From Patiria pectinifera (taxonomy: Eukaryota > Echinodermata > Asteroidea > Valvatida > Asterinidae): 64,000 nucleotides of DNA. The position numbers and the translations under genes were made by a program. Below are positions 11,816-56,149 of this stretch, in pieces (position 1 is the first letter of the stretch; each line of letters starts with the position of its first letter). The notes under the pieces are model-generated. The model was not told the DNA's origin. It was given only the letters and a program-made list of their open reading frames with translations, and did not search any database. The DNA lies in NCBI GenBank assembly GCA_029964075.1, contig CM057135.1, positions 23,214,863 through 23,278,862 of the forward strand, read 5' to 3'.

Positions 11816-13284
11816 TAATAATAATAAAAAACATTTCTACCGCACATTTTCCAAGTAATATTTATCAAATGCGCCTTACAATAAAAACAATAAGACTTCA
11901 GGTTATTTAAAATTCAATAAAAATACACAAAAACCTAGCTACAACAATTAAGTCAAATCATAAAGGTAAACCGGTAGGTGAATACTACAGATAAAATATC
12001 TCATTTAAAAGACCACTAAATTGTTAACTTAGGGGAAAAAACGAATCCCAATTCAATAAAATAAACAGAAAATGAAAAAAAAATGATGCTTTATGCCTAT
12101 ACTGACCACTCATTTAAAATCCAACAGAGTCAATTTACATGTTAAAAGCCTTTCGAAATAAGGTCTTCAGTTTCGACTTGAAGCTATGGTGACATTTTAT
12201 TGCTGCCTGATGTCAATTGGGAGTTCAATTATATTCATGGACACAGTTATGTTTATGCAGCCTGCATAATGAGATAATTTAGAGCATAACACAATCAAGG
12301 CAATTCTATAAAATACATATTTCAGGAAAACATGCAAAATGAATTGTTGCTAAAAGAGGATTAGCTATGTTTACAAAAGACATTGCAGGTGTTCTTGAAG
12401 CAAGTTTAAAGCATACACCACGAGTTCTCATTATATAAGTGATGTAATTGTGAACAACAAAAAGAAATAACTACCACCTCGTTTTGGCTGATGTGCTTGC
12501 TAAACGGGATGACTAATGGCGGAGCGTGTGGGATGTATGTATATGAACAACATTAATTAACTTTCAGTAATGTTGACCAAAGGCTGCTACAGCAAGCCTA
12601 GCGTAGCTGCTGTTCTTCACCAGAAACCTGTATAAATGGAGACAGAGAAGTACATAAAAAAATGGTGCTTATTTATGTAGTCAATTAACGCAAATCATGA
12701 GCGACAAAATGAAACCCGAAATGCGGGTTGTTAGTAGTTTGTATCAAAGTCAGAAATGAAAAACTTATTAAAGAACACTTGCACGCAATTGATGCCATTA
12801 ACACAGTTTTGTATACTGTTTAGAAGCGAACTACTTTTAGATTGATCACCAGTTTTAAATACGATTTCTCTAAAAGAATAAATAAAAAAAATACTTTTAC
12901 AAACAAGGTCTCATAAACCATCATGCTTTTTACGTGGGCGTGTAGAGAATATTGGTCAACTAAACATGTTACATGCACACGTAACAGAGAAACTGTTGTT
13001 ACCTTTATAATCCCTGTAGGAGCTAGGAGCTCTATACTAAGTTGCCCTGGATCCTCCACACTGAATGGACTCAATAACAATCTATCATGAACAGAAAATG
13101 CATACAGGCTGTCATTGAAGATGAATTACTCAACATTTCAAATGGTCATCAGACATGTCAAAAGAGCTATAACAATATCACATCTTAGGATATTCTCATT
13201 GTCATGATTGTCTAGATTTATGCAATAACCATAACAGCAGGCAGTACAGCACAGCCAGAACTGAAACCGAGATATAATGCAGCT
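11816..13284. other. Probable old interspersed repeat, then unique DNA
   Basis: Roughly 11,830-12,300 (words such as ttctaccgcacattttcc and gtcaattgggagttcaatt) resembles dispersed repeats I associate with marine invertebrate genomes, but I cannot name the family. The rest, to 13,284, shows no gene or structure. Confidence 0.3.
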
Positions 13285-15148: not shown

Positions 15149-15648
15149 NNNNNNNNNNNNNNNNNNNNNNNNNNNNNNNNNNNNNNNNNNNNNNNNNNNN
15201 NNNNNNNNNNNNNNNNNNNNNNNNNNNNNNNNNNNNNNNNNNNNNNNNNNNNNNNNNNNNNNNNNNNNNNNNNNNNNNNNNNNNNNNNNNNNNNNNNNNN
15301 NNNNNNNNNNNNNNNNNNNNNNNNNNNNNNNNNNNNNNNNNNNNNNNNNNNNNNNNNNNNNNNNNNNNNNNNNNNNNNNNNNNNNNNNNNNNNNNNNNNN
15401 NNNNNNNNNNNNNNNNNNNNNNNNNNNNNNNNNNNNNNNNNNNNNNNNNNNNNNNNNNNNNNNNNNNNNNNNNNNNNNNNNNNNNNNNNNNNNNNNNNNN
15501 NNNNNNNNNNNNNNNNNNNNNNNNNNNNNNNNNNNNNNNNNNNNNNNNNNNNNNNNNNNNNNNNNNNNNNNNNNNNNNNNNNNNNNNNNNNNNNNNNNNN
15601 NNNNNNNNNNNNNNNNNNNNNNNNNNNNNNNNNNNNNNNNNNNNNNNN
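15149..15648. other. Assembly gap (500 N)
   Basis: Exactly 500 undetermined bases. The round length suggests a placeholder of unknown true size. No frame spanning it is meaningful. Confidence 0.99.
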
Positions 15649-27641: not shown

Positions 27642-28024
27642 CGCGTAATTTTTTTCCTAGGAGGTTAGGGCAATGTCATGAATAATTCAGTTTTCCTTTG
27701 AATCATTGCAAGACTTAGGTTCTCGTTCTATTTTCCCCTTAATTTAAAATTATCTCAATGATAAATTTGGAGAAGAAAAGAGCTGATGAAAATGAGCAGC
27801 GACGACGTGGATTCGAACCAGGGATCTTTGTATCCACAGCTCATCCACTATCCATTAGGCTACTCTGTGGTAGCTCGACGACAACCGTTCTTTAAAATGC
27901 TTTAATGTATTGTAACTGGTTGAGTAACTAGCAACAATGCTGTTGATGTCATTGTCCGTTCTCATGGATAAACATGAATTATTAATGACATTGCCCTAAC
28001 CCTCCTAGGAATAAAAATTACGCG
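27642..28024. mobile_element. MITE with tRNA-like core and 7-9-bp target duplication
   Basis: Terminal inverted repeats start cgcgtaattttt on the left and end aaaaattacgcg on the right. They extend about 45 bp and include cctaggaggttagggcaatg and its complement. The heptamer agctgcc flanks both ends; the repeat can be read as 7 to 9 bases because of overlap with the terminus. The interior contains a minus-strand tRNA-like segment. It is either a MITE that captured a tRNA-derived SINE or a composite element. No coding region. Confidence 0.8.
27795..27878 (-). ncRNA. tRNA-like sequence with Pol III A and B boxes (inside the MITE)
   Basis: On the minus strand, tagcctaatggatagtgg resembles an A box and ggttcgaatcc matches the B box consensus, at about tRNA spacing. 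I cannot fold a complete acceptor stem or pick an anticodon loop with confidence, so it is more likely a tRNA-derived SINE head than a working tRNA gene. Confidence 0.5.
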
Positions 28025-28837
28025 AGCTGCCTACAAACTAGTCTGGCTCTCTGTGACCCCATTGCCCTTCGGACTTGCAGCCGAGAAACAGTATACCCAC
28101 GAACGTTTGAGGCAGTACAGCAATAGAGGGCGCTGTTGTAGCTAGCCCGAAAAATTTTGGGGGAAAAACCCATTGACGCGCACGCTTAAAACCGACGCGC
28201 GCGCTGACCAGAGACCGACCATTTTTTGTTTTTGCCCAACACTCGATATAAGCATGTAGGCTTCCAGAACTAAGTCAACACACCATCAGAAAGTATGGCT
28301 TGATAGATCATCAAATCTCAGCATAAACTGTCCAGCTGATATGCACATGTGTATGCATCCATGTTAGGTCTCTTGACTTGTATGTGGATTTATTCCATGC
28401 AGTAAACTCTGAATGATCCCCTCAGATCGTCTCAGCAAATTGGATAACACTGTCAGACTACTCTGTTGTGCAAAATCCCCTTCTGTCATACTTTCATCTT
28501 AAATAGATAGATAATTAGACAGTACAGTAGAGCATAATTAAACATCTTATACACTGGGTTGCCCCATGATTTAACTATATCATTTTTTTTTAAAAGACTG
28601 CATATGTTTTGCCATCACAACTTTTCTTCATTAAAAATATTATATTATTAAGCCACGTGTATACTGAACATGCCCAGTGACTCTTTGAAACTCATTAAGA
28701 CTTTGTACTCACTTGGACAGAATTAAACCACTTCAATTTAAAATGACAATTTGATTAAAAACATAATAAACTAAAAAAATCTTTTTAAACATTCTACTAA
28801 AAGAATGTCGCACCCTTTTAGCCCAGCATGAATTTGA
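28025..28837. other. No supportable gene
   Basis: Begins with a CpG-containing stretch (28,160-28,210), then AT-rich unique sequence without recognised features. Confidence 0.4.
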
Positions 28838-29092
28838 TCATGTTCTTAATCTTATTCCTCCATGATTTTGATCGAGCTCAATCTCAAAGGTAACTGTGCA
28901 CGAAAACACTGTTTTATCAATCATCGTCAGTTCCGCGCCAACCTCGTTCCCCATGGGCACGATCTTGCTGCGCCATGTTGTTTCTACCATGCCTTGCGCG
29001 ATCTCAACCCCGGTATTGTGTAATTTAAATGTGTCAAAATATAGCACATTATATTTAGGCTGCAGTTTAACCGTTTTACGTGCTGACGCCAT
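28838..29092 (-). CDS. Candidate small open frame or first exon (unidentified)
   Basis: An 84-residue frame starts MASARKTVKLQP and has balanced composition, including TTWRSKIVPMGNEVGAEL and FSCTVTFEIELDQ. It lies downstream (in its own sense) of a CpG-bearing region near 29,280-29,420, as a 5' exon might. I recognise no family, see no clear 5' splice donor, and cannot connect it to another exon. It could be the first exon of the minus-strand relics at 22.9-27.5 kb, or chance. Confidence 0.25.
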   Translation of the reverse strand: MASARKTVKLQPKYNVLYFDTFKLHNTGVEIAQGMVETTWRSKIVPMGNEVGAELTMIDKTVFSCTVTFEIELDQNHGGIRLRT

Positions 29093-29552
29093 CTTTAAAA
29101 TGTTAAAAGTTGTGATTTTATAGAATCAATTCTTTCTTGGACGTTGCGTTATTTAGCAAAGATTGGTATTAAATGTACGTACCCCTTTCGTTCCTTTACA
29201 AGCGAAGATACAGGGTTTTTTTAGCGAAAAACGAGGCTGCCATAATCCATATCGTACAGGCATCACGACTGTTGAATAACAATTCTTTTTTTTGTACGTG
29301 ACGTTACGTGCAAAGCACGCGAGCGCATTATGCTGTGAATAGCCAATCAGCGTCATTTACGTCATCATCACGACCAGGGGTTAGGTGTAAGGAACGCACA
29401 CGCGCCCCTAGAGTCGAGGCTGGTTCCGTGCTTGATCACAGGCACGAGACTGGGAACAAAGGTTGTGCTGCATAGTCTTGGTTCCAAAAGGCCTAGTTGT
29501 GTGAGCTGGAGTGATAGGGCTACCAGTCCGTGCAGACTAGTACCCTGCTTTA

Positions 29553-29695
29553 AATAATGTTGGGGTTTACATATTCGTCGCGGGACTTAAATAATTTTGG
29601 GGTTTACATTCGTCATGGGCTTACAATAATTTTGGGGTTTAAATTCGTCATGGGCGGGACTTACAATAATTTTGGGGTTTATAATCGTGGCAGGG
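29553..29695. repeat. Tandem repeat, ~35-bp unit, left block
   Basis: Units read approximately gggacttacaataattttgg followed by ggtttacattcgtc, repeated about four times with small indels. A second block of the same unit lies at 30,120-30,275, and an unrelated dispersed repeat separates the two. Confidence 0.85.
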
Positions 29696-30118
29696 CCAAC
29701 CTCTTCCCAGTGCTTACTTTATTTTTCAACATTGTTTCCAATAGTAAACCCTGGGACTTACTTACTTCCTGCATCCTGATTCGATACCGCAATTGGCTAG
29801 AAATGGATTTTTATCGTTTATTTGGTGTTGTTGTTATTCACAACGTGCAGTACGTGTTTTCGCGATCATTCGTTCACGCCTTCTCAAAATATTCATTTTC
29901 TTTCCAATTTGTTGATATTAATATGAAACGTGATACTGCATATTATTGTCTCGTAAAGATCGTAACAAAATCATGTTCACGCACAGGCAGGCACCAGACT
30001 ACTCCTAATTTGCATACGTATTCAAAATCTTGCACAAGGAAATGACCCAATACCAGGTGAGAGAGCAGGTAGTGGTGGGCGCGTACTGCTGGACAACCTG
30101 GGGACAAGGTTGTCGCGG
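29690..30118 (+). mobile_element. Dispersed repeat inserted between tandem blocks; inverted copy at 42.93-43.44 kb
   Basis: Matching landmarks, in opposite orientation to the second copy, include cagtgcttactttatttt, gataccgcaattggctag and gcgtactgctgga. The ends contain ccaacctcttcccag and ctggggacaaggttg, a diverged inverted pair resembling CAACCTCGTTCCCAG termini that are common in invertebrate MITEs. A 162-residue open frame overlapping it has no family support. Confidence 0.7.
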
Positions 30119-30275
30119 GGCGTACAATAATTTTGGTGTTAACATTCGTCGGGACTTACAATAACTTTGGAGTTTACATTCGTCGCGGGGCTTACTTTAT
30201 TTTGGAATTACATTCGTCGCGGGACTTACAGTAATTTCGGCGTTTACATTCCTCGCTGGACAGTAATTTTGAGGT
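30119..30275. repeat. Tandem repeat, ~35-bp unit, right block
   Basis: Continuation of the ggactta...taattttgg...ttacattcgtcg units seen upstream. The array appears to have been split by the intervening dispersed repeat. Confidence 0.8.
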
Positions 30276-33200
30276 TTAGTCAATTTTGTGTTTTATTGTA
30301 CATTTAATTTAATACGGGTGTTTTATTTGTAATGATTTGTGTATTTCTCTTTTACGCTTTCTGATTTTGTTTAGGTGTTCTTTATTTTACTTTCCTGCAT
30401 TTTTATTATTAATTCGTCGGGTGCACCACGAAGTGACGTATCGCAAAATCGGTCATTTCGAGAAAATCGACTTTTTAGGAATCGCACTTTTGAGGCGCGT
30501 TTTTCCAATCGAATTGAACAAGCTTTGTTATTTTTTTTTGAAAATGAGCCGACAAAAGAGGGCATTTACTGCCCCATGAAAGTGAAATGTTGTCAGTGCC
30601 AGGCCACTAGAAAATATTCGCTCTTGAATCTATTCGTCACTTCGTGAAACATAAATTTCCAATTACTTAAGTCGCACGACGTGGCGTATAGTTATTCGTC
30701 ACTTCGTGGTGCAGAAAATATGAAAAACTTCATCTTTGCGCATGCGCAACACTGCGCTGCACGTAAAGTGCATGCCTGTTCATTTTGTATTCATCCATTT
30801 TAAAAATCAGTGTTCTACGACGGTACTATGACTTTGAATTTCATTAAGACAGGGAAGAGTAATGGTTGCCCACGGAATTTAATTGGACATTTTCGTAAAG
30901 GGTAAATCAGAATGCCTAACAGGAGGTTTGACTTCAATTTGTGACAAAGTCCAGCGAAAAGAAAGGTCTCCAAGGTTAAGGGAAGTCGTTAGAAGATGGT
31001 AAATACCAACCTATCAAAATACTTTGGTGGTGAAATTTGGCATGCCAAGGCCACCTGACCTAATTTACCTTTGGGCGGTCATTAGAGAATAGATAGACGC
31101 TTCACAACGAGGAAATCAGAGAAACGAGAGCAAACAAAGTGAAATCAATATAGTGTCTTCAATTCTTCAATCGAACTTATTTATTGTTTAAACGTGGCTT
31201 TATAAACGTTTTATTTCTTACTTTTCAAATGCAGTTCATCAATTCAAGCAAATTTTAATAAAATTCATAATATCAATGCTTCAATTAATTAATCATAGTT
31301 CCAAATCATTTATATTTTGCAAAAACTCCTCTTCTGTCTAAAATTGATCGAGACATGTCATTTTTTTTTTACCCGATGCTGTGTCGTTTGCCCCGGATAA
31401 ATATCATTTTGACCCGGCAAAGTTTTATTTTTTTACCCGCAATACGGTTCTAATAGTGAAGAGGAATTAGTCATCTTTTGTGTTAATTGTGTACAAATTC
31501 ACACTTTCGTGACCTGATGTGGAAGGTTCTTAAAGAATGCAACGTGGTCCGGATGCTGCACAACAGCAGTTGGCCCTGTACACAAGGTCATGAGGTCTTC
31601 ATTTCCCTGAAGACAATTTGGGTAGGCTGCTTTCATACGACTGTCCGGGCAGTATGTTACTTTCAGGGGGTGAGTGCCTTGAGATTCTGTTCAGGTCAAT
31701 GGTCCCCCACCTTGTGTCCAGGTGAGACTTTTCGACCTTGATCATGCCCTGGAACCTCTTGTCTACGTGAATTTGCATTATTTTGGTCCACTCAATATTG
31801 TCGCCTTCCACGGTAGATCGTGCACGTAGAACGCATCTCTCTAGATGTCTCTTTCCAGTCAAGAATATCAGAGGTTTTTACCTCCACCACCCGGTAAGGT
31901 TCAGGGTTTCTTCGTGCCAAACTCATGAGAGCTGCAAGTTGAGACGGAATAAAAATGTCTCCCACTCCTAAAAGTGGTGATTCTTTTTAATATTGAGATT
32001 AAACATATGTTACATTGAACAAAGGATATACAACAAAATGATATGTTCATATGAGCAAAAGGAACAAATGTGTATTGCTTGTTTTGTGTCACAAATTAAA
32101 TATAAGCCTCACTGTATTGAACTCTACTTGGCTGGGTATCAAGATCACTCTTTTACACAAACTATAGTGTCTTTTCTTGGTGAGAAACGAATAACGGGTG
32201 TGTTTAATGAAAATTGTGTCAGCCTTCAGATTCATAAAGATAAACAACATTGATGGATCAGATAAATCTTTCAGATTTCTTGAAATACATGTATGGATTG
32301 TCATTGCATGCTCACGTTTCAAGAATACATAGCCTACATGAAATAAGAGTTGATTTACGTTAGTTTGATTTTAATGTCAGTTGTCCTGAGGCACTTGCAA
32401 CAAGTGTATGTGTAAGCAAGGAGGTAGACAAAGTGACAAATTTATCTAACAGGTAAGTACGTGTACATGTTCCCCAACCAGGTGTTGATCTAGATCTACA
32501 TTTAGTACCTTTTACTGTTTTCTTGAAACGTGTTCAAACTTGTTTTTCGGGGCAAGGCAAGGAAAGATTCCCATTCATGATCACTTGCCAAATGTTTAAA
32601 ATGTCTAAAATCTAAAAGTATTGTCAAAATTTGTAATTATACTATACTTCAAAAAAGGAATCACGCAGGAGATAAGTTTGTTGTGTCTTCTCGCCACAGC
32701 TTCAAGTTTTTAATCAACCTTATTCAACCGGAATACCAAAGATTAAGGGCAAACCGGATACATAAAGCACATTAACATTTAACATGAGGAGGTACCCATG
32801 ACCGCCTCACGTAGTTTGATGCTCACAAGAAAACTGATAGTGATAGTTTAAGACCCAATTACGATAATGGTACCCATTGACCACTACCTACCAACAACGG
32901 CCGTTGTGAAAGCCTATTAAATCAAGCGATAAAACCATGTTCACTCAAAACCAGCATTATGGGGCCTGTTTTCTTCTGGAGCACCAATACAAATGCCAAA
33001 CACGAAAAGCGACCCACATAAGAAACAAGCACCATAACTGCGGGAACTTACATTAGCCATTACAACAAGTATTAAAATGGCCATCCTCCATACAAACGAT
33101 CAGCGTTGAAATAACGCGCTGTATTCACACACATGTATGGGTATAGGCTAAATGCATGCGCCCTCGACTTACTGAAACCATAACTCCTAAAAGAAACAGG

Positions 33201-33590
33201 TACTGAACATAGACTCTGTACCCAATGGAAATTTAGTTTGTTCGCTTGCTGTAGAAACCAAATATTTCTGCTTGTGGAAAATTGTATGTACGTACTTTTC
33301 GAATTCAAAACGATAGCAATTGCACTTCGGGCACACTGACTATGTCAGACATCCATTACCAATACATGCGTTATAGGTGGCCGATTCGCTCGGCCAGATG
33401 GCATACGGGGCAGTCTAATTGCCTTTCACTCACGAAGTTTATTCAGAAAGTATCTGTACAGCTAGTTGCTGTCAATTCTAGTGAATATTCAAACCAAATT
33501 TGAATGAAATTCACAAAAATGTTATGTACGTACTTTTCAATATTCATAAAACCATTAATCAATCTGAAGTTGATCGACTGTATAATAGGC
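30276..33590. other. No well-supported gene
   Basis: At 31,862-31,599 on the minus strand an 87-residue piece (IEWTKIMQIHVDKRF, LDTRWGTIDLNRI) looks like a protein remnant but is unassigned. The word atgtacgtacttttc occurs near 33,285 and again near 33,522. Otherwise AT-rich unique DNA. Confidence 0.4.
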
Positions 33591-33599
33591 CGATAACCC

Positions 33600-33965
33600 A
33601 GTTTTGGCTTGTGTTTGCGCCGGGTGCGCGCGCGCGTGCGTGCAGCTCGTTCTTCACGCGCGGTACTGCATGCTGATTGGCTAATGGTCATTTGTTTACT
33701 GCGTTCGCACGCGGTTTAATCAGGTCACCGCGTATTCGCTAAATGAGTAGTCATTACTTCCCAAATCAGTGCGCGCTGTAATATTGGCTGTATGTAAATG
33801 AAATGATGATATCACACGTATGTTGCGCGCACGTTGGTTACATATCAGTTTAGTTGCCGCCACATTCCCGGATGTTGCGCACGTGCACATGTGCGCAGTC
33901 GCTACGTTGCGACGTTCGCGTTGGTAGGGACGCCGGGCGATGCGTTATAAGCATCCTAACACTAG
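33600..33965. promoter_or_regulatory. CpG-rich patch, possible promoter region
   Basis: Against an AT-rich background this stretch is dense in CG dinucleotides (cgggtgcgcgcgcgcgtgcg near 33,619; repeated gcgcacgt words near 33,830-33,900). It lies about 1.3 kb before the first recognisable exon of the RAG1-like gene on the same strand, so it could hold that gene's promoter. No initiator or TATA assignment is secure. Confidence 0.3.
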
Positions 33966-34669
33966 GGCGTTTCTGGCATTTCATGACATACCACTTGCTA
34001 CCTACCTACCCCAGTACAGTAATGGAGGGACGATACACTTATTTTTAAATAAATCTAATCAACCCCACGAACAATAAAGATAAAAAAATGCCCCCCAAAA
34101 AACACTTCAAACGGGAATAATCAACGTTAGTTTAATTTAGCCCGATAAGTGAAAGTACAAACAACGTGATTTCTTGTCTCCCCCGGGGTTTTCCGAAAGA
34201 AATATTTCCCAAACACACAATCAACAAGCGTTGTTACATTAAACTGCTTTGATAACAGCCCTGGAAAGTTTTTTTTTAACGAGTATTTAGCAATTCTACG
34301 CGACATGACTATATCTATCAAGTTCACCATGTGCGGTATCGATATTACACATATCGACAATAACTGGTATCGCTTCCAGCTAAAAGTTATTCATTTACGT
34401 ATCAATGAACTATTCGAATATTCTGAAACAGCATTGTCGATTAATCGATTAAAATTGTCAGAGCGCCAAATTCAAGTTCACAGGTAAATATAATTTTCCA
34501 CCATTGTTTTAATAAAAAGAATTCATACCGCTTATAATAATTTTTGAAACCAGTATATTTTAAATAAATTTTAAACATATACAGCCATGGCTGTAAATAA
34601 AGCTCGATACTTTTCAGTACGTTTTATTATCGGAATGGATCAACACTTTTCAACTAAATTTATAATTAT

Positions 34670-35245
34670 TATTATTAACAACAATGCCAATGGGGTAAGG
34701 CACAGGCTTAAATTGTTGGATTCTATACATCTTTCATATAAAACAGAAATAGGCCTATACACAATTTTGTAACTTTTTAAAATGATTCCATAGATATTTA
34801 AATGAGCACTTTAACAGTGTGTAACACATTCCTAATCTTAAATACACAATACATAATCTTAAATACACAATTTTAAATTCAAATAAAGCTTGATACTTAG
34901 TTTCAGCAAAGTTAGTCTTCAGCAAAGTTATTTAGCCTTATTCTCGGAAGTATATTGGTACATCTCCAGCGCCTTGAGGCGGAGCTGATCTGCAACTGTT
35001 TTGCGCTTTAAAATTTCTTTTTATTATTACTTTTATTATTTAAAATCCATTATTATAATTATTATTATTAACGATGGGGTCAGGCACAGGTCAAATTAGG
35101 ACTTATGTTGGATTCTAGACATAAAACAGGAAAAGCATTTTATTTACAACATTCTTAAATTGCTCAATTGACATTGGACATAACAGTGTATTTTGCATGC
35201 ATGTAACACATTTCTGATAATCTTATACAAAATTACAATTCCAGC
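34670..35245. repeat. Degenerate tandem duplication upstream of the RAG1-like gene
   Basis: The sequence from about 34,670 to 34,870 (ttattattaaca, then ggggtaaggcacaggc, ttggattcta, aacagtgt...gtaacacatt) recurs at about 35,060-35,240 with the same order of words. The unit is about 370 bp. The second copy ends at the presumed splice acceptor or start region of exon 1, so it lies in the 5' flank or a 5' intron. Confidence 0.6.
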
Positions 35246-35261
35246 TTTGCTAAAAATCAAC

Positions 35262-36164
35262 ATGACAACGATGCTGAAACTATACAAGTTCACACTTGAC
35301 AGACACCGAGAGTTTCTGCAGAGGCTCTGTCGAATATGTGGACAAAGAGCCATACAGGAAGCAGATGAGTCTAGGGGAAAGCTGCCAGGCTTATTTCTTC
35401 ATATAGGGACATGATACAAATCACGTTTGCGGGTGGTGTACAAAAAGAGGAGCCTGATGTGTATCCCAAGAACATCTGTGAGTCTTGTCGTGCCAAACTC
35501 TATCTCAAGCCCAAGAGATCAGCTTATCACTGGTCCCCTCATCAAAGGAGTTTTCCATGTGAGGTGTGCACAATGTTTGCACAGCAGTCAAAGGGCGGTC
35601 GTCCAAAAAAACACAGGAGCTGGTCGTCCAAAGCAGGTGACAACTCCCACCAAGCACTTTGGTGAACTGAATGAAGGAATGGCATCGCTGCAGTTCCCTG
35701 ACCTTGATGACATTGCCAACTTTTCACCAACCAGTCCCATCTACAACTGTCAAGTGTGCAAACACTTTCTCAGGTGGCCAGTAGCCCTTCCTTGTGAGCA
35801 CATATTCTGCTTGCAATGTATTCAGGATATCTGCAACAAAGAATATGAAACCAAATATCAGTGTCCTATCTGTGCCAATAAGTTCAAGTTTCACGAAGTC
35901 GAACTTGTGAAAGAGTACTTTTTGGAAACTCTGACAAGAGGCAGCCTCAAATGTGACACCTGCAATATTGTAGTGCCACTCCCAGAGGTTAGCCAGCATA
36001 ACTGTGATCCCAACAACATCATCAAGGGAGTAGAAAACTACCTGGCAACTCCCGTCACCATTCCCCTGACACCTACTCTGGAAAAACTTGGGACACACAT
36101 TCTCAAAACCAAACTTGCCCAGTCAACCGATCATGTGTCTGCAGTTTTCAAAACAAGAGGGCAG
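35262..36164 (+). CDS. Exon 1: RAG1-type N-terminal zinc and RING region
   Basis: CRICG (Cys at about residues 23 and 26) and, in another frame, ICESC and FPCEVC parallel the zinc-binding cysteine pairs of the RAG1 N terminus. KGGRPKK and GRPKQV give a basic patch. The RING, about residues 163-210, follows C-x2-C-x11-C-x-H-x2-C-x2-C-x14-C-x2-C; PCEHIFCLQC is the core. A second finger, LKCDTC...SQHNC, follows as in the RAG1 zinc dimerisation domain. The reading frame shifts near 35,405 and shifts back in a seven-A run near 35,611, net zero. A splice acceptor (ttccag) precedes at 35,244, so an upstream exon may exist. The donor is gtaaaa, phase 0. Confidence 0.85.
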
Positions 36165-39100
36165 GTAAAATGCCATGATACATTTCATCAAAGATACTAA
36201 ACTCTAACTTTGTTAAATCACAAAACAAATAACTGTTGACAATTTCATGTCTCTACATAAATACTCCACAGAAATTAGTTATTTCAATAGTTGTTTTTAA
36301 TTAAATGAATAGTTTATTGTTAACCTCAAAGAACATTATTTGCAACTAAATTTCCTTTTATCAAGTTGTTATATCGCAATAATATTCATAGTATTGCACA
36401 AACCTTATGCGCTTTAAAATGACATCTTTAAAATTTGCAGCACCTAGTAACAGTTTGCCTACCGAAAGCACGGCGTAACAGTGATGAGGCGTCAGCATCA
36501 TCGAAGCGGCAGCGAACTCTGGTGCTTGAGCGAGCACGTGACATCGTCAGTGGAGGGTCAACCAGCAGCCAGCTGATGGATGAGGTGTGTGTGAAGTCCC
36601 ACCAGGAAGACCTTCAGAAACATCTTTGGGAACTCCAGCGGCTCCGCATTCCCCATGGGGAGCTCCTCTCCTTGAAAGCAAACATGGGCTTCAGCTGGAA
36701 GAGAAATCAGGAGCTCAAATGGTTTGTTAAAACAACATGTTTCATTAGGAATATTATATTTGTAAAACAAAAGGTATATTTGGGTAGTTTACAAATCCAA
36801 AACAAATTGCTCTTATTTAAAGAAAACAAAATGAGATCAAACTCTGATTACATTGGGGGTTACAACAATTGCAGAGACTCGGGTTGGATCCAGGTTTTTT
36901 TAAAAGGGGGTTAAGGGGTACCAAGATATGACTTGAGATGGGCTCTTACCAATCCTTTTCCTTTGTGGTTGTGTGATGAAATTTTAATTCAGCTGGCTGA
37001 AGCAATACGGCGTGCTAACAGAAGGGAAGGGCAGCTACGCCGGCAACAAAAGATCATCATAGGAGACAACATCAAGGCAGAGTATCTCCCATTCAGTTTT
37101 CCTGATGAAGAGAATGGTGGAGATGTGATTAAGATGGCTCCATGTGTTGGGGTTCAGTCACTGTGTGCAAAGGTGATCCAACAACTTGATGAGTATGACA
37201 AGTAAGTTCAATTTCTTCTGAAGACTGTGAGGGCAAAATGTTGCATATTTTAAATATAGTCCTAAATACAGTTGGTACACACACACACACTTTAATATAC
37301 ATGTTTATACTCTGTATTGAACAGGATAGGAAAACTCACCTGGCATGATGAGATCATTCCTAAAGACGAGATCTGGCTGAAGATAGGGGGCGACAAAGGC
37401 GGGCGAACCTTCAAAATGATGCTGCAAATCGGGAATGTGCCCAGCCCCAACTCCCTGAGCAACACAGTTGTTATCTGTGCCTTTGAGGCCAGTGACACCA
37501 TCTACAACATGGGAATCGGCCTCCTACGTTTGAAAGAACAAGTTGATGAATTATTGCAGTCCTCTTGGAGGTGAGTGCAGAACTTTTCATTACTGCAGTT
37601 GTAAGCAAAGGGAAGTAAAACGCCTAGATGGCGATAACCAATTATGTTGAGCTTCTTTTCCACTCATTAATGTTCTGATATCTCTGTACTTTAAGGGATC
37701 ATGCCTTTGAAATCTTCATGTTTGGAGATTATGAATTCCTGTGCCGCATGTATGGACTAACTGGAGCAACAGGTAAGGAACTTGATCTGTAGAAAAATTG
37801 TAATAAAATTGTGATATATATATAATTCAACATGGACTTTTGTAATGTCTTTATTTTGAAATAAAAATGTAATCTACGTGTATGAAATTTAAGTTTTGAC
37901 GTTATCTTTTGAAACTTCTATACATGTAAAGGTCGGCACAGCTGCCTGTACTGTACTGTCTCCAGGGAGGACATGAAGCGCCCTCGCCAAAACAGGCAAC
38001 CAGTCACCCAAAGGACCCACCACAGTATGAACGAAGACTACAAACGGTTTCAACAGACTGGAAAAAATCCCAAACTTGCAAAGACCTGCAATAATATGAT
38101 CCGAGATCCAGTCTTTCCCATTCCAAATGCAAGGTAATTGTTTTTAATTTTAAATGACAAAACACTTTTAACAAGAATCAGTTGATGTCCTACAAACTTT
38201 AACAATTTCATTATCATATTCTTACATTTCCTCCTTTCAGGTGTGCCCCCCCCCCCTGGTCTCCACATAAGCCTTGGCCTGTTCTTGAAGCACTTCAATA
38301 GCTTGGAGGCTGCTTGTAGTGATCTTGATGTGAAAGTGGCAGCCACTTTAGCCAAGACCCCTTCCACGCAGCCCCAGCAGGAGAATCTTTTAGGCCGTGC
38401 CTATCAAGAATACGTCAAAAAGATCCGAACAGCAGAAGGCTGTGAGCAACAAGCGGACCACTGGAGAGCAAATGCTGACCAGCTCAAAGAGCAGCTAACG
38501 GCAACCATAGTTGAGTTAGATGATGAAAACCATCCCGTTGTAGAAATGTTGGCACAGGCAGTCAAAGAGAGTCAAGAACAATTGAGTGAAATGGTAAATG
38601 TAAAGTTTTTTCTTTTAACATTATGTAAACTTTCTTTCAACCAGTGAACTCAATATTTCATAACTATAGTTTCTTAATTCTTTTAGCATCATTTTGCATA
38701 CATACTTGGTTTTAACAGCAATCCAAAGCTTCAGAAGCAAGAAAGGCCGCCAAGTTGGAGACTGGGCAGGGACCCCTTGTGTGTGCCCTGGACACCACAC
38801 TACAAGAATTCCGTGTTCAGCGGCAAGCGTATCATGGGAAGTCTTTCGTAGGGAATCACGTGCACAAGTGTTGCAAGGTGAGTTCTCACACCAGTCTCAC
38901 ACTATTCCTCCAGCACAGCTGCTACGCAAAATTCACAAACATTTCATAACATAATCAACCCTTCATTAATGTTTAATCTGTCAACAGCCAGAAAACATTC
39001 AAAAGCTTGTCGACTCCATCACATCCACCACAAAGACACTGTGTCCCCGATCACCTCCTAGACAGAGAGAGGCAGAGCAATTGGCAGCAAAATATAAGAA

Positions 39101-39757
39101 ATTGCTGTCCATGTTTTCCAGCTGCCATAATCTCTACAATGTTTCCAGGCCACTAGATGATGCTGAAATTGAAGTACTTGGTAAGCAAAGCCATTTTAAT
39201 AATAGCAAAAAATAAAGCTGAAATAATAGTCAAACAAATGTGCAGTGCAACCATATTTATATAATGAATGATTAAAAAATGTCACATTAAAATGCCCAAA
39301 CAAAAAGAAAACAAAACAAAAATAAAAACACTGCAGTACATTGTAAATAATTACCCATCTCTCTTTTGTTCCTCCAGAAAAAAACATCCTGCAATACATG
39401 AGCTTCTTCAGAGAAGCCTTTGCAGGGGAAACAGTGCCTCCAAAGATGCATATGCTCGAAGAGCACGTAGTTCCCTGGATAAGGCAGTGGGGTGTTGGCC
39501 TTGGCTTCCACGGAGAGCAGGGTGGGGAGTCCGTCCATGCTAGACTTAACACCATCCGTGCAAACATCCGAGGATTCAACGACGATCTCAAGATCCTGAA
39601 AGCTGTCGTTGAAACCCTTTGGATTCAAACCAGCCCATCAACACTGGAGAAAAAAACATCCATGAGGCCTTGTTTACATAATTACATTGTAAATGTAGTG
39701 TCTGAGTGTTTAATGAGACTTATCTCAGACCATCCAATGCAAACTGGCTTAATTTGA
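35262..39757 (+). CDS. RAG1-like DDE recombinase/transposase (N-RAG-TP-like), 10 exons
   Basis: The exons together encode about 1,000 residues, close to vertebrate RAG1 (about 1,040). Order: paired CxxC knuckles, GRP-basic stretch, C3HC4 RING plus C2HC finger, linker, then a DDE core interleaved with a CxxC/HxxxxH zinc site. Spacings match RAG1: Asp to first zinc Cys is 19 residues as for D708-C727, and the zinc His pair is HxxxxH as for H937/H942. The final Glu sits 21 residues after the second His (20 in RAG1), in GEQGGES against RAG1 SEGNES. All exons have GT/AG borders with compatible phases except one shift in exon 7. Expected role: nuclear RNase H-fold DNA cleavage/strand transfer; the RING may be a ubiquitin ligase. 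Molluscan N-RAG-TP elements combine a RAG1-type N terminus with a transposase. This copy could be an intron-bearing transposon, a domesticated gene, or a young pseudogene. No flanking inverted repeats or RAG2-like gene were seen. The true start may be upstream. Confidence 0.85.
36441..36725 (+). CDS. Exon 2: linker of the RAG1-like protein
   Basis: After acceptor tttgcag, it encodes HLVTVCLPKARRNSD, a Ser/Arg-rich stretch, and a charged helical segment with HQEDLQKHLWELQRL. The donor is best placed at gttaaa (phase 0), joining ...ELKWF to LAEAIRR; an earlier GT four bases upstream would break the frame. Confidence 0.75.
36993..37201 (+). CDS. Exon 3: pre-core region
   Basis: Encodes LAEAIRRANRREGQLRRQQK, very basic, then DNIKAEYLPFSFPDEE and an acidic/hydrophobic stretch up to QQLDEYD. 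Acceptor aattcag and donor gtaagt are clear (phase 2). It leads directly into the exon bearing the first catalytic Asp. Confidence 0.8.
37325..37570 (+). CDS. Exon 4: first catalytic Asp (IGGDKGG)
   Basis: WLKIGGDKGGRTFKMMLQI matches in position the RAG1 strand bearing D600 (CDGMGD) and the strand after it. The following VVICAFEASDTIYNM and LKEQVDEL parallel the RAG1 segment with ADESDHETL and its helix. Donor gtgagt, phase 2. Confidence 0.85.
37696..37772 (+). CDS. Exon 5: second catalytic Asp (FMFGDYEF)
   Basis: A short exon encoding FEIFMFGDYEFLCRMYGL. The Asp lies about 70 residues after that of exon 4 and 19 before the first zinc Cys of exon 6, the same offset as RAG1 D708 to C727. The following GLTGATG parallels RAG1 GLEASG. 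Donor gtaagg, phase 1. Confidence 0.85.
37932..38133 (+). CDS. Exon 6: zinc CxxC (CLYC) segment
   Basis: GRHSCLYCTVSREDM supplies the CxxC equivalent to RAG1 C727/C730. THHSMNEDYKRFQQTG parallels the RAG1 segment with SITRSHAENLERYE. The exon ends with IRDPVFPIPNA. Donor gtaatt, phase 2. Confidence 0.85.
38241..38593 (+). CDS. Exon 7: LHISLG segment and coiled coil; frameshift in C11 run
   Basis: PGLHISLGLFLKHFNSLE corresponds in place to RAG1 LHCDIGNA, with Ser where RAG1 has the DNA-contact-region Asp. A long charged helix follows (DQLKEQLTATIVELDDE), probably coiled coil, absent from vertebrate RAG1 at this point. The splice-defined frame meets a stop soon after the run of eleven C at 38,246-38,256; the conserved frame is offset by one. 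A sequencing or assembly error in the homopolymer is as likely as a real mutation. Confidence 0.8.
38719..38877 (+). CDS. Exon 8: conserved YHGKSFVGNH segment
   Basis: An exact 53-codon, phase 0-0 exon with acceptor ttaacag and donor gtgagt. It ends the helix begun in exon 7 and encodes LQEFRVQRQAYHGKSFVGNH and VHKCCK; the His/Cys-rich end could add metal ligands. Confidence 0.8.
38988..39180 (+). CDS. Exon 9: helical core segment
   Basis: Encodes PENIQKLVDSITSTTKTLCP, a basic stretch, and YKKLLSMFSSCHNLYNVSRP, then acidic DDAEIEVL. Acceptor caacag, donor gtaagc, phase 1. It occupies the interval that in RAG1 is the helical domain inserted between the second Asp and the final Glu. Confidence 0.8.
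39378..39757 (+). CDS. Exon 10: zinc HxxxxH and catalytic Glu, C terminus
   Basis: PPKMHMLEEHVVPWIRQWGV carries the two His equivalent to RAG1 H937/H942, and GFHGEQGGESVHARLN the Glu equivalent to E962, followed as in RAG1 by an Arg/Asn-rich helix (LNTIRANIRG). The C-terminal ~45 residues differ from RAG1. The frame closes with TGA; the nearest AATAAA downstream is at 40,717, too far to assign confidently. Confidence 0.85.
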
Positions 39758-42150
39758 ATTTTGAATAGGCCTACCTGTACCATGATTGTGACTTCTTATA
39801 ATTATAAGGCCTGTTGCTAGGACATGAACCTAACAAATTTTCCATTCATTTCCAATTAGGCCTACATACTTCATAGTTCGTGAGAGGTTTGATCATGATA
39901 TATATGGTTTCAGACATGATTGCTATTTGCTAAAAGTAAGTGTTTCAGGATTGTTAGTAACACCACTGCACCAGTCAACAACCGCAGACATGACAGACAT
40001 AATGAAATACTATTCCTGGTGTTAATGTTGTCATATTGTTTTTATCAATTTGCTGTGCACATGTAGTACTACTAAAAGTACTAGGGCCTACATGCTAAGT
40101 TAGTGTGACCGGCCAGACTTACACTCCTGTAATTATGCTGCCAGGTCCCGTCTGTAAATATTTCTTTGTCGATGTCTTATATTTTTAGCATAAACAGCGA
40201 TGCGAAAGTTGTCGAAGCATTGCGAGCGCCCTCTTGTTTTTTCCGTGGAATAGAGCATACAGAGTTGCGTAACAATTTGCATATGACATGCAGTGCGAAA
40301 AAGCCTTTTATTCCGTGCAGTGTCTCAAAGCATCGGGCTTCGGACGCACATTCCGTGAATTTTTTCGCTAGTTTTCTTGGAGAGTAAGCAAGCATGTGTA
40401 GGTCACTTGACTGCTTGTCGTTGCTGCTGCCAGCCACACCTTATTGCGAGCCAGCTTGTCGATATTTTGCTGTGTTTCTCACGTGGTTTTGCCATGGTTA
40501 GCACGCCGCATGTGCATACACATATCGTGTACATGCATATCGTGTAGTTTGCCCAAACATCCCGAGGCATAGGTACACAGGCCGCAACTGCTCCGGTAAG
40601 TGTTTCAACTTCGTAAATTTTGATGTTATCTTAAATAGCACTTTACGACATATTTGTATGCCATGAATACTCAAGGTTGGAAGCCAAGTCTGTATGAAAC
40701 ATTTTTATGCCATAAAATAAATATCCCAGGTTGAAAGCCAAGTCTACAAAAATTGTGCATAATATGACTGGAATTTTTGGATACCGAACCTTGTAATATT
40801 GACTGTGTACTTGCACATACTTCGATCCTATTATGTTGAATTATAGGGTCAATGCACTTTATTGAACTCAAAGTTGGATAGCGTGGATGGAAAGAGAAAT
40901 AAGAGAATGTTCTAGCCTGAAATGAAACACATGAGACATATAGATGGATGTACGAATACAGAATATTGAATACTCTTTTTATGAGCCTTACTGTTTAAAC
41001 AAACAAATGTTAAGAAATAGATGTACGGTTTAAAATGCATTGTAAATTCATCAATATAGAATAACTACGGATGTGTACACACGTACTGTGGAGATGAAAC
41101 TTTTTGATGGCACTGATGATTATTTAATATTCCTTCATCAAAACATTTATATTAATAATATTTATGAGATTACTTAATATGTACAGTAATTTTATTACAG
41201 CTACTGCTTGTGGTTCTGTGGTTCCTGATGGTCACAAATAGAGAAGCCTTCTTGAGTAGACCAGTGTATCCCTTATCCAGCATCCATAATATTTGGGCAC
41301 GTGTATAAAACATTATTGCTTAAAATGTGCCTAAGAAATTGGAGATTTGGAAATTTAGAGATTTGGAGATAAATGTGTTGTAAAATTATTGCATAGCAAG
41401 TGCTTATGGAGATTATTTCTCCTTGATTAAATTTTTACGCCTTTAATATTTTTATGCCTTTAATAATTGTATGCCTCTCGTAAGAAATGTACTTGTAAAT
41501 TCGCAGCAAAAACATTTCTATGGAACAAATCAATGGAAATTGAGGTTTATAGAACCAGTAATGCAATTTCTCATGATAAGAGATAACCAAGGATAAGGAG
41601 AGATGGTTATTTCAAATAATTAAATAATTGAATATTGGATTCATAGTCATTGTATATTTGTAAATAAATTAATTTCTATTCTTCTGTTTTCTGTTATTAC
41701 AGACTGCTGAAGAATGACTGTCGTTTTTTGTAATAATAAAATTTTGATCAATTAAGTGGAATTATATCCCTGTGTCACTTTCAAATTTTTCTGCGTAACC
41801 TTTCCAGCTCGGTTACATTAGTGTACAAAAAGTGTTTTTATTTGTTTAATAACGTTTTTAGTTTATTTTTTTCTTCTGCTATTTTTTATTCGTGAATGGA
41901 TCCAGGCCTATCTACTCTTTAAGGCTTTTTATTTACCATTCATTTAAGTAAGGTTATTAACCAACTCAACATGCTCAAGGGATTATTGTATGTTATAATA
42001 ATAATAGTTTTTGTTTTTATCGTTCAATCAAATCTATTATCTGTTCAGCCACGCTGTCTTACCAATTCTGGGAGTTTCTAATTCTCATTTTTGATAAGTT
42101 TGAAGGATTCCTTCCTCCATCATTTGTCCATGGCTCCATGGTTCGACATC
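39758..42150. other. No supportable gene; 3' flank of RAG1-like gene
   Basis: A short direct repeat (gttggaagccaagtct / gttgaaagccaagtct) occurs near 40,675 and 40,730. A pyrimidine-rich acceptor-like sequence and a downstream AATAAA near 41,700-41,740 could be a stray terminal exon of an unseen transcript. Nothing coding is recognised. Confidence 0.4.
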
Positions 42151-42179
42151 CACCGTCAGCCTCTCCTACGTGGCTACAT

Positions 42180-42300
42180 AATGTACCTGCGACTGACCTG
42201 CATGCCGTTTACTCGGCCGCGCCGCGCCGCCGCACAGCTCAGAATGCATGCATCGCGCGCGATTCGATTGTTGTCGTTTAATAATAACACCGGAAGTGAA
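42180..42300. promoter_or_regulatory. CpG-rich patch
   Basis: A short CG-dense stretch (ctcggccgcgccgcgccgcc) in AT-rich surroundings. No exon can be attached to it on either strand, so a promoter role is only a possibility. Confidence 0.2.
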
Positions 42301-42924
42301 ACACGTCACATGGCTCCCATGTATTTTAACCGCTATTCAAGGCGCTATTGACACCAAACCCTATAAACAAAATAGTATTTTCACCTTCAGACGAAAAACT
42401 TCTCACAATAATCTTAATTCACTGTTTTCGTGACAAAATACGAACCTTCTCTACATCTAGTAAATACTATTACAGCCTAAATGACTTGATTTTTCGAATT
42501 TTAGATGTAATTTCGAAAGTGTGCGGCCATGAAAAAAACCTTCTTACTTTAAATATTACCGTGAACATATCGTGGTGGTTATTGTGATTAAAACTCTTGA
42601 TTTCCCAAGCCTGGGAAAACCCAGACATTTGTGTGTCACGTGACAATGTAAAACCGACCGAAAATTGGAGAAATTCGGCAAAAAATCACCTCTTTTTCCC
42701 CTGTGTCAAAACGTTTTAAACTGATCGATTTTGTCAGCTAACCAAACGTCTTGTTATAAGACTAATACTAAATATTCATATTTTCATCCATATTCATAGG
42801 AGTACCCTCCACAGATGACGATGTCATTGGATAAAAAAAACGTAGGCTACGACGTCACGAAACTGTTTACAACGCGCGCTGGCATTTAAATACGCAATGC
42901 GCATGCGCGAAAACTAATCTGACG

Positions 42925-43445
42925 CGAAGCAACCTCGTTCCCAGGGTGTCGAGCAGTACGCGCCCACCACTACCTGCTCTCTCACCCTGGTATTGGATCA
43001 TTTGCATGTGCAAGATTTTTGCAGACGTATGCAAATGAGGAACAGTCTGGTGCCTGGATATGCGTTACACATTAGCGTTTGTTTTTACCCCAGACACCGC
43101 ATACAAAAACAGAGTCAATTCGTAGCAGCGCGAGCACGGAGTGAGTTACGAAAACACGATTTTTGAAATCAAACTGTTACGATCTTATCAAGACAACATG
43201 CAGTATCATATTTCATATTAATATGAGCAAATTGGAAAGGAAATTAGTATTTTCGAGAAGGCGTGGACGAATGATCGCGTAAACACGTACTGCACGTTGT
43301 GAATATATAGCACCAAGTACACGATAAAAATCCATTACTAGCCAATTGCGGTATCCAATCAGGATACAGGAAGAAAGTTTCCTATCCAGGGTTTACTATT
43401 GGAAACGCGGTTGGAAATAAAGTAAGCACTGGGGACGAGGTTGGA
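42925..43445 (-). mobile_element. Dispersed repeat, inverted copy of 29.69-30.12 kb
   Basis: On the minus strand it follows the same order of words as the 29.7-kb copy. Its outer ends, aacctcgttcccaggg and the complement of ggggacgaggttgg, form an inverted pair. This copy keeps termini better than the other and suggests a MITE about 0.5 kb long. Confidence 0.7.
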
Positions 43446-46400
43446 CGCGAAGGTACCCCAAGGACACTATACCAAGATCAATGCCTCAGGCATGACAAGG
43501 TTACACCTGTTGCATCATAACACTTAAAACAATTCAGGGAATACAAATGACTCATAATAAGAAAGTAAAAGTTGACCAGGATGGAAAATACCAAGATCCT
43601 GAATAACCAAATTAATCTTAAAACAAAAAGGAATATATAAGATTGAAAACTTGGATATAGAGAAAATAAAGAAAAGGGTTAGCTACTGAAACAAACTTAA
43701 CTAAGATAAAACTTAAAAGGCTATACTAGATATATCAAGTAAAATGAATACACTTATCAAATTATCAAAGAGAACTGTTACAAATTCACAGAATTTGTAC
43801 TAGGGAAATTATTCCTCTTTTCACTCTAGTCAAAAGTAACTGGGAACGATTATAAGATAGCTGATTGTCTTTTGTGAATAAAAAGTTAACTGAATAATCA
43901 GTGGATGTCTAGTATAATAAATCATGATGTTTGTACATGTAGTCCTACAGACTCTTCTTTCTTAAATAAAGTTTCACTTTATTTAGACTAGAGTCGCCAC
44001 AAGTCTTTTGTACAAAAATGGCAAATCTTAGTACGTAAACTTTCAGATCAATCAAAGAAAATCGAAGATAACTCAAACAATTGAGGTAATCGATCAATTT
44101 GGAATTTGTTCTGACAAAATGACAGCAACGAAGCAATAAAAATGTCAACTGCAGTAAGAACCTCTCAAGTGGAAATTGGCCAAAGTTGGAATGTCCAAGA
44201 ACTTAATATTCATCTATTAAACTTAACAACACTCTCAACTCAATACAGTGATGGAATGAAAGGAACATAATAGTAATAGTAACAACATGTGACGACTCGG
44301 TCTAAACTTCGAGTAAAGAATGAACACTTTAACCTAGGAGTAAAAAGTAAGATAAAAGTATTGTTGCAGTTTCTGCGCGACTGCTGGCGGAATAGCCTTT
44401 TACTCTGTGGTCATCGACGCACCCAAATGACACGCGACACAAATTTGCCTGTCACCAATTGGGGTGTTGACTTCCCGTTTAATCTGTGTATAAATCAACA
44501 AAATGTTTGTGACATAACATTCTGAAGTGTCCGTGTTACAATAAATCAAGAATACAATGCAACGTACATAACAATGTACAAGCGTTACAAAGCACATCAT
44601 AAAACCCTGTCCACAATTTGGCAAGAAATTAGACTAGAACAATTAGACTTATAAACTACAAAATATGGACTTACGACTCTGCCGAGATAACCGGCTATCC
44701 AGCGGCAGAACTGCAGCTACAAATCGGTAACTACATGTACATTAAGTCATGTTGACATCGACAAAATGTCTTCACAAAAACAATAATGTCTGGCGAAGCT
44801 AAATACGAGCAGTTGTAGTTAACACCGCACCGTGTGCCTAAACCCGCACACGTGAACACATTGTACATGTACAGATTGCATGACACACTTAAAGAGACCT
44901 GGAAAGTATATACATTTTGGGCGCGCACTCCGATAAACAGTGCATCGCTAGGTGACGTCTACAGACTTCATGAATAAATTATGAAACCAAGGTCAAAGGT
45001 AAATCTACTACAGTTTGACAATGTGCGCCTGCGTTACAAGTATTATCGAACTCACCTAGAGCAGGACAGAGGATGAATACATGAATATGGCAGGTTCAGT
45101 TGGAGGATTACAGAAGACAGTTTAAACAGTGAAACTGGGTGCTTCCAACTACCTGTCTCTGTTAATTGCAGTTCAGTGGTCAAGTGAAGGGAAAGTTCAC
45201 TGGCCACCGAATTTATACAGTTCCTCCTCAAGGACTATTGTGCATGGTTGGTTGCAAGTTCTGCTACCAACCACCCACACGCGCTGCCAAGCAACCCACA
45301 CATTTCTAAGAAAGTGCATGACCTAACTCTGGGGGACTTAGGAATTCGAAAAAATGGGGGGCACAAAATTCATCCTATTACAAATGCAATTTCAAACTTT
45401 GTATAATGAAATGCAAAAAAGGCCAAAATCTTGTAATACCTATTAAATGTGAGTTTCACTGTGCAGTGATTTTTCACATGTGTAGGTGGTGGCCTCATCA
45501 TCATGATTAGTCTCCATATCCAGCTACACCTTGTACGGGATGTTGAGCCACCCACACCAACCGATCAGTAGAGGTGTGCCACAGATCAGGGGGCTGACAG
45601 AGCATGGTCGGCCTCAAGCTATCGCACCTAGGTATTTAAACTTCTACAGGTTCTCAAAGATCCAAATATATCTGGTACACAATGTAGCACTATTACGTTG
45701 GTTTAATATTCTCAGTTTTAGTTGATGGTGGTGTTGAATATAGAATATGTATTGTTTTCAAGGAGCTTGACAAACAAATAGGAAGACAAATAAATGAGTG
45801 CTTGCATGTATGCACATCATGATGTCTACATTTCAATTGATATAAAGATCCCCTTTTCAAAAATCCTCTAGCACCCAAATATCGGAAACTTGATTCAATT
45901 GGATGCATTTATTAGCCTATTAACGAAGTGTATTAATTTCTATAGTGGTCATCGTTTGTTTTTTTCGTATGAAGGGGCAGGTTGGGTCATAACTTACTCA
46001 CTGATCAGTTGTGCACAGAATCTTCTGTGTATTGGTTGAAAATATGTAATCAGGGTTTTGAAACATTGCGCACATTGACCGCCCTTTGTTTGTTGTAATT
46101 TGGTTACTAAAAACGGCTTGGAATCACAGTGTATTCAAGAACAATTCTTTATGAAGCTGTTTTAACAAGTTTTAATAAGTTTTGTTTTGTTCCAGCATGG
46201 TGGACTTAAGCTTCTCTCGAGGACTCAAGAAACGTGGAGCAGTTTGTTTTGCTTCAGTGGAAGCCTGTGGTTTCCATCTCTTGATTCAATGCTGAAATAT
46301 CATGAATCATTGATGGATTCAGCTGGCCCCATGTTTATTCAGCTCATAAATTTGGAAGAAGGGGGCCATGTAAGCCGTAAAAAAGTATACTGTTGATACA

Positions 46401-55639: not shown

Positions 55640-56125
55640 GTCCAAGTTCGTTTTTACGAGATTTTTTTTCTCGAAGTTCGTTTTTACGAGATTTTTTTTC
55701 TCGAAGTTCGTTTTTACGAGATTTTTTTTCTCGAAGTTCGTTTTTATGAGATATATTTTTCCCAAAGTTCGTTTTTACGAGATTTTTTTTCTCGAAGTTC
55801 GTTTTTACGAGATTTTTTTTCTCGAAGTTCGTTTTTACGAGATTTTTTTTCTCGAAGTTCGTTTTTATGAGATATATTTTTCCCAAAGTTCGTTTTTACG
55901 AGATTTTTTTTCTCGAAGTTCGTTTTTACGAGATTTTTTTTCTCGAAGTTCGTTTTTATCAGATACATTTTCTCGAAGTTCGTTTTTATGAGATATATTT
56001 TTCCCAAAGTTCGTTTTTACAAGATTTTTTTTCTCGAAGTTCGTTTTTATGAGATACATTTTCTCGAAGTTCGTTTTTATGATATATATTTTTCCCAAAG
56101 TTCTTTTTACGAGATTTTTTTTCCT
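55640..56125. repeat. 30-bp satellite with higher-order structure
   Basis: About sixteen monomers of aagttcgtttttacgagatt plus ttttttctcg lie head to tail. Most read acgag-att; every third or fourth monomer is a variant, atgagatatatttttccca, one base longer, giving a ~121-bp higher-order unit in the left half. All frames stay open through it, so the long open frames on both strands are artefacts. It ends about 25 bp before the integrase-core gene. Confidence 0.95.
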
Positions 56126-56149
56126 TCACGCGGATTTCATTCGATAGTC

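Follow-up and report, generated by a model that had tools for sequence, protein, structure and literature searches.

Chapaev elements are the described transposons that come closest to the locus reported here. In the excerpt of Kapitonov and Koonin (2015, PMC4411706) used for this work, the Chapa domain is described, a RING domain comes after it in two Chapaev subgroups in an arrangement 'similar to RAG1', and Transib, TransibSU, Chapaev and Chapaev3 are joined in one group. DUF1280 proteins appear as putative Chapaev transposases in the available part of PMC3985635, where an RNase-H-like tree puts DUF1280 and RAG1 in one clade, while the C(2)C and H(3-4)H motifs, lying between the second D and the last E, are given in an excerpt of PMC12730594 as common to Chapaev, Transib and RAG1. 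CAC/GTG ends and 3-4-bp duplications are named as Chapaev hallmarks in PMC4079192, a paper that holds no word beginning with 'intron'. Outside Chapaev, amphioxus RAG1L has a RING region too (PMC7204232, in part), and N-RAG-TP of Aplysia is a RAG1 N-terminal-like sequence in a transposon (PMC8355894, in part). As far as these excerpts go, a RAG1-type front end together with a related cutting core in Chapaev elements was already described in 2015; the sequence-only reading of the present DNA had taken the combination to be unusual, which these descriptions contradict.

Here, we report a ten-exon locus in the window (the whole stretch of 64,000 nucleotides of Patiria pectinifera DNA that was analysed), which very probably represents a Chapaev-class DNA transposon (DUF1280; CMC/Transib-related) with Chapa and RING before the DDE core, in a diverged copy confined to a single locus. 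It is like the Chapaev elements with Chapa and RING, as excerpted from PMC4411706, in both of these domains and in its DUF1280-type DDE core, and a related subfamily in the genome has a CAC-starting end, with GTG and a 4-bp duplication in one copy; it differs from them in that the window copy lacks recognisable ends. With vertebrate RAG1 it shares the order of N-terminal zinc fingers, basic patch and RING plus finger, as well as a collinear core with D, D, CxxC, HxxxxH and E. There are also differences from RAG1: the core is without direct sequence similarity, no RAG2 partner was found among 20 flanking ORFs, and the locus has repeated transposon relatives and nine introns. RAG1L of TransibSU/ProtoRAG is likewise from an invertebrate DNA transposon of the same wider group, but the Pfam RAG1 model (PF12940) detects sequence of that kind at other places in the genome and not at the window locus, where the 20 flanking ORFs include no RAG2L either. 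N-RAG-TP resembles the locus in its RAG1 N-terminal-like sequence; in the excerpt of PMC8355894, however, it consists of the N-terminal part only, whereas at the window locus a DUF1280 core comes after it.

The locus lies on the plus strand at 35262-39757 of the window, and its ten exons amount to 3,003 nt, or 1,001 codons, interrupted by nine introns that all have GT...AG ends (9/9). The domain order is a RAG1-type zinc-finger N terminus (Chapa), a RING, a C2HC finger and a DDE-type core (Table 1). The split into ten exons and the length near 1,000 residues had been proposed from the letters of the sequence and are upheld, as are the exon 1 features named at that stage, namely the CxxC pairs, the basic GRP patch, a C3HC4 RING scoring above the PF15227 cut-off and the C2HC finger. 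Exon 1 had also been read as a single exon; the N-terminal order stands, but not the single open frame, since two breaks divide it into three pieces.

Table 1. Features of the locus and the nearby assembly gap, in window coordinates.
Feature	Position	Strand	Remarks
Exon 1	35262..36164	+	Chapa zinc-finger domain, basic GRP patch, RING, C2HC finger
Exon 1 frame pieces, window copy	35262-35411, 35414-35643, 35616-36164	+	three pieces
Chapa domain	35262..35640	+	RAG1-type N-terminal zinc fingers: CRICG ... ICESC ... HWSPH ... CEVC ... GGRPKK
C3HC4 RING finger	35748..35873	+	PF15227 40.8 bits, cut-off 30, E 2.3e-10
C2HC finger, 3' of RING	35946..36005	+	aligns with finger of RAG1 dimerisation domain; phmmer match to 1rmd (RAG1) covers RING and finger
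Exon 2	36441..36721	+	57% identity to L007; GT-AG
Exon 3	36993..37201	+	one frame break, read from the L007 comparison; 67 bp missing in second allele
Exon 4	37325..37570	+	DUF1280 core, PF06918 58.6 bits, cut-off 25
Putative first catalytic Asp, GGDKGG, exon 4	37392-37394	+	Asp in 24/24 rows
Exon 5	37696..37772	+	carries putative second catalytic Asp
Putative second catalytic Asp, FGDYE, exon 5	37727-37729	+	Asp in 24/24 rows
Exon 6	37932..38133	+	carries CxxC pair
CxxC pair, exon 6	37943-37954	+	Cys in 22/23 and 23/23 rows; aligned with RAG1 CxxC
Exon 7	38241..38593	+	frame break in C run at exon start
Exon 8	38719..38877	+	60% identity to L007; GT-AG
Exon 9	38988..39180	+	56% identity to L007; GT-AG
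Exon 10	39378..39757	+	HxxxxH pair and putative catalytic Glu
HxxxxH pair, exon 10	39449-39466	+	His in 8/8 and 6/8 rows; aligned with HKTLAH of RAG1
Putative catalytic Glu, GGES, exon 10	39527-39529	+	Glu in 9/9 rows; aligned with GNES of RAG1
500-N assembly gap	15149..15648		

The intron positions are backed by a diverged paralogue, L007 (C7:1846000-1855900), which makes the splicing of the locus a prediction with support from a second copy. Apart from about the first 22% of exon 1, all ten exons of the window locus have relatives in this paralogue, at 39-68% identity exon by exon; its nine junctions correspond in position and carry splice dinucleotides, those of the exon 2 donor lying one base past the anchor string used. 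Six DNA matches connect the two loci. Other than inside exons 1 and 10, they end within about 10 bases of an exon boundary; because two of the six cross introns (intron 3 in one case, introns 7 and 8 in the other), the DNA similarity does not end at every exon edge. L007 is itself a dead copy, because several of its exons contain stop codons. At a further locus, L044, exons 4-8 and 10 were matched in the same order as separate blocks, and its exon 9, for which tblastn gave no match, was taken from the open frame.

In sequence comparison, the N terminus of the locus resembles RAG1 beyond chance. Smith-Waterman alignment against mouse RAG1 with shuffle controls (in the PDB search, all 900 residues of the mouse sequence aligned with RAG1 chains) gave a score of 68 for the Chapa part (shuffle mean 28, z 8.3) and of 108 for RING plus finger (shuffle mean 32, z 13.4), each reached by 0 of 500 shuffles. 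The window locus has a RAG1-type N terminus with the RING dimerisation domain and, equally, the Chapa and RING that mark two Chapaev subgroups. In database searches, Pfam RAG1_imp_bd matched the Chapa part at 17.2 bits (E 0.0041), under its cut-off of 23.3, and a PDB search with the Chapa part alone returned two matches up to E 10, neither significant, the second of which (E 3.5) was the RAG1 N-terminal chain 21wb. With the RING piece, phmmer ranked BRCA1 and other RINGs above RAG1, the RAG1 match spanning RING and finger jointly. The Chapa part was judged against RAG1 and against other copies in its own genome, where 23 further Chapa matches exist besides the locus and its allele, and where Chapa and RING lie within one open frame in several other copies. 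RING matches also form a dense cluster at G000:C19, ~3.0-5.8 Mb, many of them in open frames of ~640-790 aa, perhaps a TRIM-like expansion.

The core was assigned by hmmscan to DUF1280 (PF06918) over about 100 residues, at the score given in Table 1, and had no match to PF12940; a PDB search with it gave four weak matches up to E 10, none of them RAG1 or RAG1L. Direct Smith-Waterman alignment of the core with mouse RAG1 was also negative (score 41 against a shuffle mean of 40, z 0.1, the score being reached by 80 of 200 shuffles). For a family alignment, 39 loci were searched and at least four exon matches were required, which seven did not have; after nine double-fetched rows had been dropped from 33, the alignment comprised 24 rows, the window and 23 loci, nine of the 24 coming from one subfamily and the pairs L016/L017 and L018/L034 being near-identical. 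Conservation counts for the Asp, Cys, His and Glu residues were taken over the rows covering each site. In a DUF1280-type transposase core as in Chapaev, the locus has the DDE triad, and C(2)C and H(3-4)H lie between its second D and its E; since a further Asp in exon 4 is likewise present in 24/24 rows, the catalytic residues are putative. The RAG1/RAG1L core model is without a match at the window locus.

Comparison of the profile of this alignment with one built from mouse RAG1 and the RAG1-like core L052 had a different outcome from that of the direct searches. The HMM-HMM comparison, a kind of check that had been suggested, scored 43.9 (HHalign probability 54%) over 409 columns at 20% identity, and none of 100 control templates, 99 with shuffled columns and one reversed, reached this score, their maximum being 28.1 and the reversed template scoring 17.3; with another setting, only the last 66 columns were aligned (score 40.6, probability 37%). 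In the alignment, GGDKGG was paired with CDGMGD, CxxC with CxxC, HxxxxH with HxxxxH and GGES with GNES, and the second Asp was one column off. By this comparison the core is distantly related to the RAG1 core and collinear with it, at the HHalign probability of 54%. The sequence-only reading had named the lack of any significant profile match to RAG1 or Transib in the core among its grounds for giving it up, and this ground holds in part, as the direct RAG1 searches (Pfam, PDB, Smith-Waterman) fail and the family-profile comparison finds a distant relation. What remains of its main claim is an intron-rich locus in which a DDE-type core is joined to a RAG1-type N terminus; the claim of a RAG1-like gene does not hold in the strict sense, given a DUF1280 core with no RAG1 match in Pfam or the PDB.

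RAG1-like sequence proper exists elsewhere in the same genome. PF12940 gave five matches, among which the window locus is absent; the best, at 246.5 bits, is the above-mentioned L052 (C7:13017885-13019549), a RAG1-like core with one stop and 31% identity to mouse RAG1 over 558 aligned residues. A RAG2-like neighbour was sought among the ORFs around the window locus: of the 49 in 28000-46000, many of which overlap the element, 20 flanking ones were compared with Pfam, and none of these matched any family at E 0.01. Further out in the window are a reverse transcriptase ORF at 4671-6031 (+; PF00078, E 1.3e-15), after which comes an overlapping ORF of a different frame with no Pfam match at E 0.01, an inverted pair of ~970 bp at 8651-11819 (95% identity, with weaker internal repeats), and a 382-aa ORF at 55871-57019 (+) that contains an integrase core (PF24764, E 3e-26) and has tandem repeats of an SKFVFTRFFF-like stretch before it.

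Relatives of the locus are dispersed and in many copies. A copy count had been proposed as a check, and its outcome depends on the level at which copies are counted: when 1,001 bases of the locus were searched at the DNA level, they matched the locus itself, a single copy 55 kb upstream at 97% identity and, over 105 bases, L007, so that the window lineage comprises one locus and its allele at high DNA identity, while at least 78 matches to DUF1280, two of which are the locus and its allele, occur genome-wide. Confined as it is to that one locus, the window lineage itself gives no evidence of mobility. Eleven of the 30 loci that were cut out belong to one subfamily, whose dispersed copies have pairwise identities of about 93-98%, mostly 96-98%, and all ten of its copies fetched with flanks (10/10) have one common sharp 5' end, beginning CACGGCAGTT (CAC start). 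Two copies were read to the 3' end. L046 ends ...AACTGCCGTG (GTG) and has CATG on both flanks, a 4-bp duplication; L044 is without the last bases and has no duplication. The CAC start, the GTG end and the CATG flanks fit the CAC...GTG, 3-4-bp hallmark of Chapaev; CAC...GTG termini with a target duplication are present in one of the two subfamily copies read to both ends and were not found at the window copy. As to distribution, 58 of the 78 DUF1280 matches listed are on C7, which makes up 7.3% of the assembly, and 53 of these (two being the locus and its allele) are in 0-23.3 Mb; a Harbinger-type control (PF13359) had 43 of ~150 rows on C7 among the matches listed (152 matches; 150 of 343 candidates scored), and four of the five RAG1-model matches are on C7. 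The first half of C7 looks transposon-rich, with Chapaev especially skewed there; a non-recombining region or an assembly effect may lie behind this.

About four breaks interrupt the reading frame of the window copy: exon 1 contains two, and exons 3 and 7 contain one each, the latter two being read by comparison with L007. All are at or close to homopolymer runs. For the frame offset in exon 3, an additional intron or a different splicing pattern was considered and rejected: L007 also shifts frame there, beside an A run, but the two copies have no visible splice signal in common. The state of the copy can be compared with a second version of the region: window 15649-53652 is collinear with C7:23176064-23213510 in three blocks at 95.6, 99.5 and 97.1%. 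The window stretch begins right after the 500-N gap and the other stretch stops right before a gap at C7:23213511, and because the two collinear stretches are each bounded by a gap or contig end, we read the other stretch as a second allele (haplotig). That the 97% copy 55 kb upstream is an independent insertion was rejected, because on either side the collinearity stops where the contig of one of the two copies ends. Of the two exon 1 breaks, the second allele has the second but not the first; 67 bp of its exon 3 are missing, and an A run in its exon 6 is one base longer. Given the position of the breaks at or near homopolymers, and given that one of them is missing from the other allele, some of the breaks may stem from the assembly, and 'broken' is an uncertain description. 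Outside the element, a 286-bp stretch (window 42341-42626) is missing from the other allele between collinear flanks, an insertion or deletion difference.

Coding differences between the two alleles comprise 17 nonsynonymous over 2,228 sites (pN 0.0076) and eight synonymous over 625 sites (pS 0.0128), a pN/pS of ~0.6 that is weak evidence, resting as it does on 25 differences and on uneven allelic divergence. This unevenness is seen in the introns downstream of exon 4, which are without any allelic substitution, and it weakens the selection test. Exon 1 differs at 21 of 903 positions, against 54 of 2,231 in the 5' flank. There is no clear selection or constraint between the two alleles. Nor was anything convincing found at the window copy in the way of terminal repeats or a target duplication: the best CAC-starting pairs matched at 11 of 13 positions, which 18 of 300 shuffles reached, and their flanks were unmatched. 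On the 5' side, window ~33700-33814 holds the terminal part of a different dispersed repeat, for which 39 matches were counted apart from the locus and its allele; 28 of them stop at one and the same base. On the 3' side a high-copy repeat starts at 40104 and extends to 41500 and beyond; with 40 of 99 candidates scored, it has at least 49 matches (two being the locus and its allele, most at 84-98% identity), many of which begin near the same base. Foreign repeats ending at ~33814 and starting at ~40104 probably bound the element. From the frame breaks, the lack of recognisable ends and the lack of clear allelic constraint, we infer that the window copy is immobile today.

With its domain order, exon structure, family match, conserved acidic and zinc-type residues and dispersed, repeated relatives, the window copy is probably an old, worn-out Chapaev copy, and of the two options that the sequence-only reading had left, a domesticated recombinase or an intron-bearing transposon, it is the transposon that is borne out. 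Domestication would mean that a Chapaev element lost its ends and kept its ten-exon gene in the service of the host, the breaks being sequencing errors. Such a history agrees with the missing ends, the single locus with its allele at high DNA identity, the intact acidic and zinc-type residues, and the position of the breaks at or near homopolymers, including the exon 1 break missing in the other allele; beyond the missing ends and the single locus, however, we found no positive evidence for it. The excess of nonsynonymous over synonymous allelic differences in number, the allelic differences of exon 1 set against those of the 5' flank, the exon 1 break present in both alleles, the 67 bp absent from exon 3 of one allele and the many repeated DUF1280 relatives all argue against a domesticated gene, which we consider improbable. 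A domesticated Chapaev-derived recombinase, independent of RAG1, with a full RAG1-type N terminus and a catalytically complete DDE core and with breaks that are assembly errors, is still less probable.

A true RAG1-like (TransibSU/ProtoRAG/RAGL) gene with the full RAG1 N terminus is largely refuted and very unlikely: the N-terminal order, the significant similarity to RAG1 and the distant collinear similarity of the core speak for it, but the core matches DUF1280 and neither PF12940 nor a RAG1 or RAG1L chain of the PDB, even though PF12940 finds L052, and the 20 flanking ORFs compared had no Pfam match. RING and CxxC motifs are common, and the genome has many other RING matches, so that a pattern-seeking reader could have grouped a RING exon with unrelated exons by chance; that explanation is refuted and is left with practically no probability, given the related exons of L007 in the same order with the same boundaries and the other copies with Chapa and RING in one open frame.

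If the locus is a Chapaev copy, an intact protein of this kind would bind the CAC...GTG ends of its element and would cut them with the DDE RNase-H-like core, whose chemistry is predicted from its family; the CxxC and HxxxxH pairs of the core may hold zinc as in RAG1, and the RING may serve as an E3 ubiquitin ligase or a dimerisation module, again as in RAG1. The element would then be pasted in with a 3-4-bp target duplication.

Within Chapaev, the copy in the window is ordinary and probably worn. The finding bears on the origin of the RAG1 N terminus: alongside RAG1-like sequence proper, one genome contains numerous transposon copies in which a RAG1-type Chapa-RING N terminus is combined with a distant relative of the RAG1 core. 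Their presence in the same genome fits, and does not prove, the published view of a common ancestor in which Chapa, RING and core already stood together, an ancient fusion that contrasts with a late fusion involving an N-RAG-TP-like piece.
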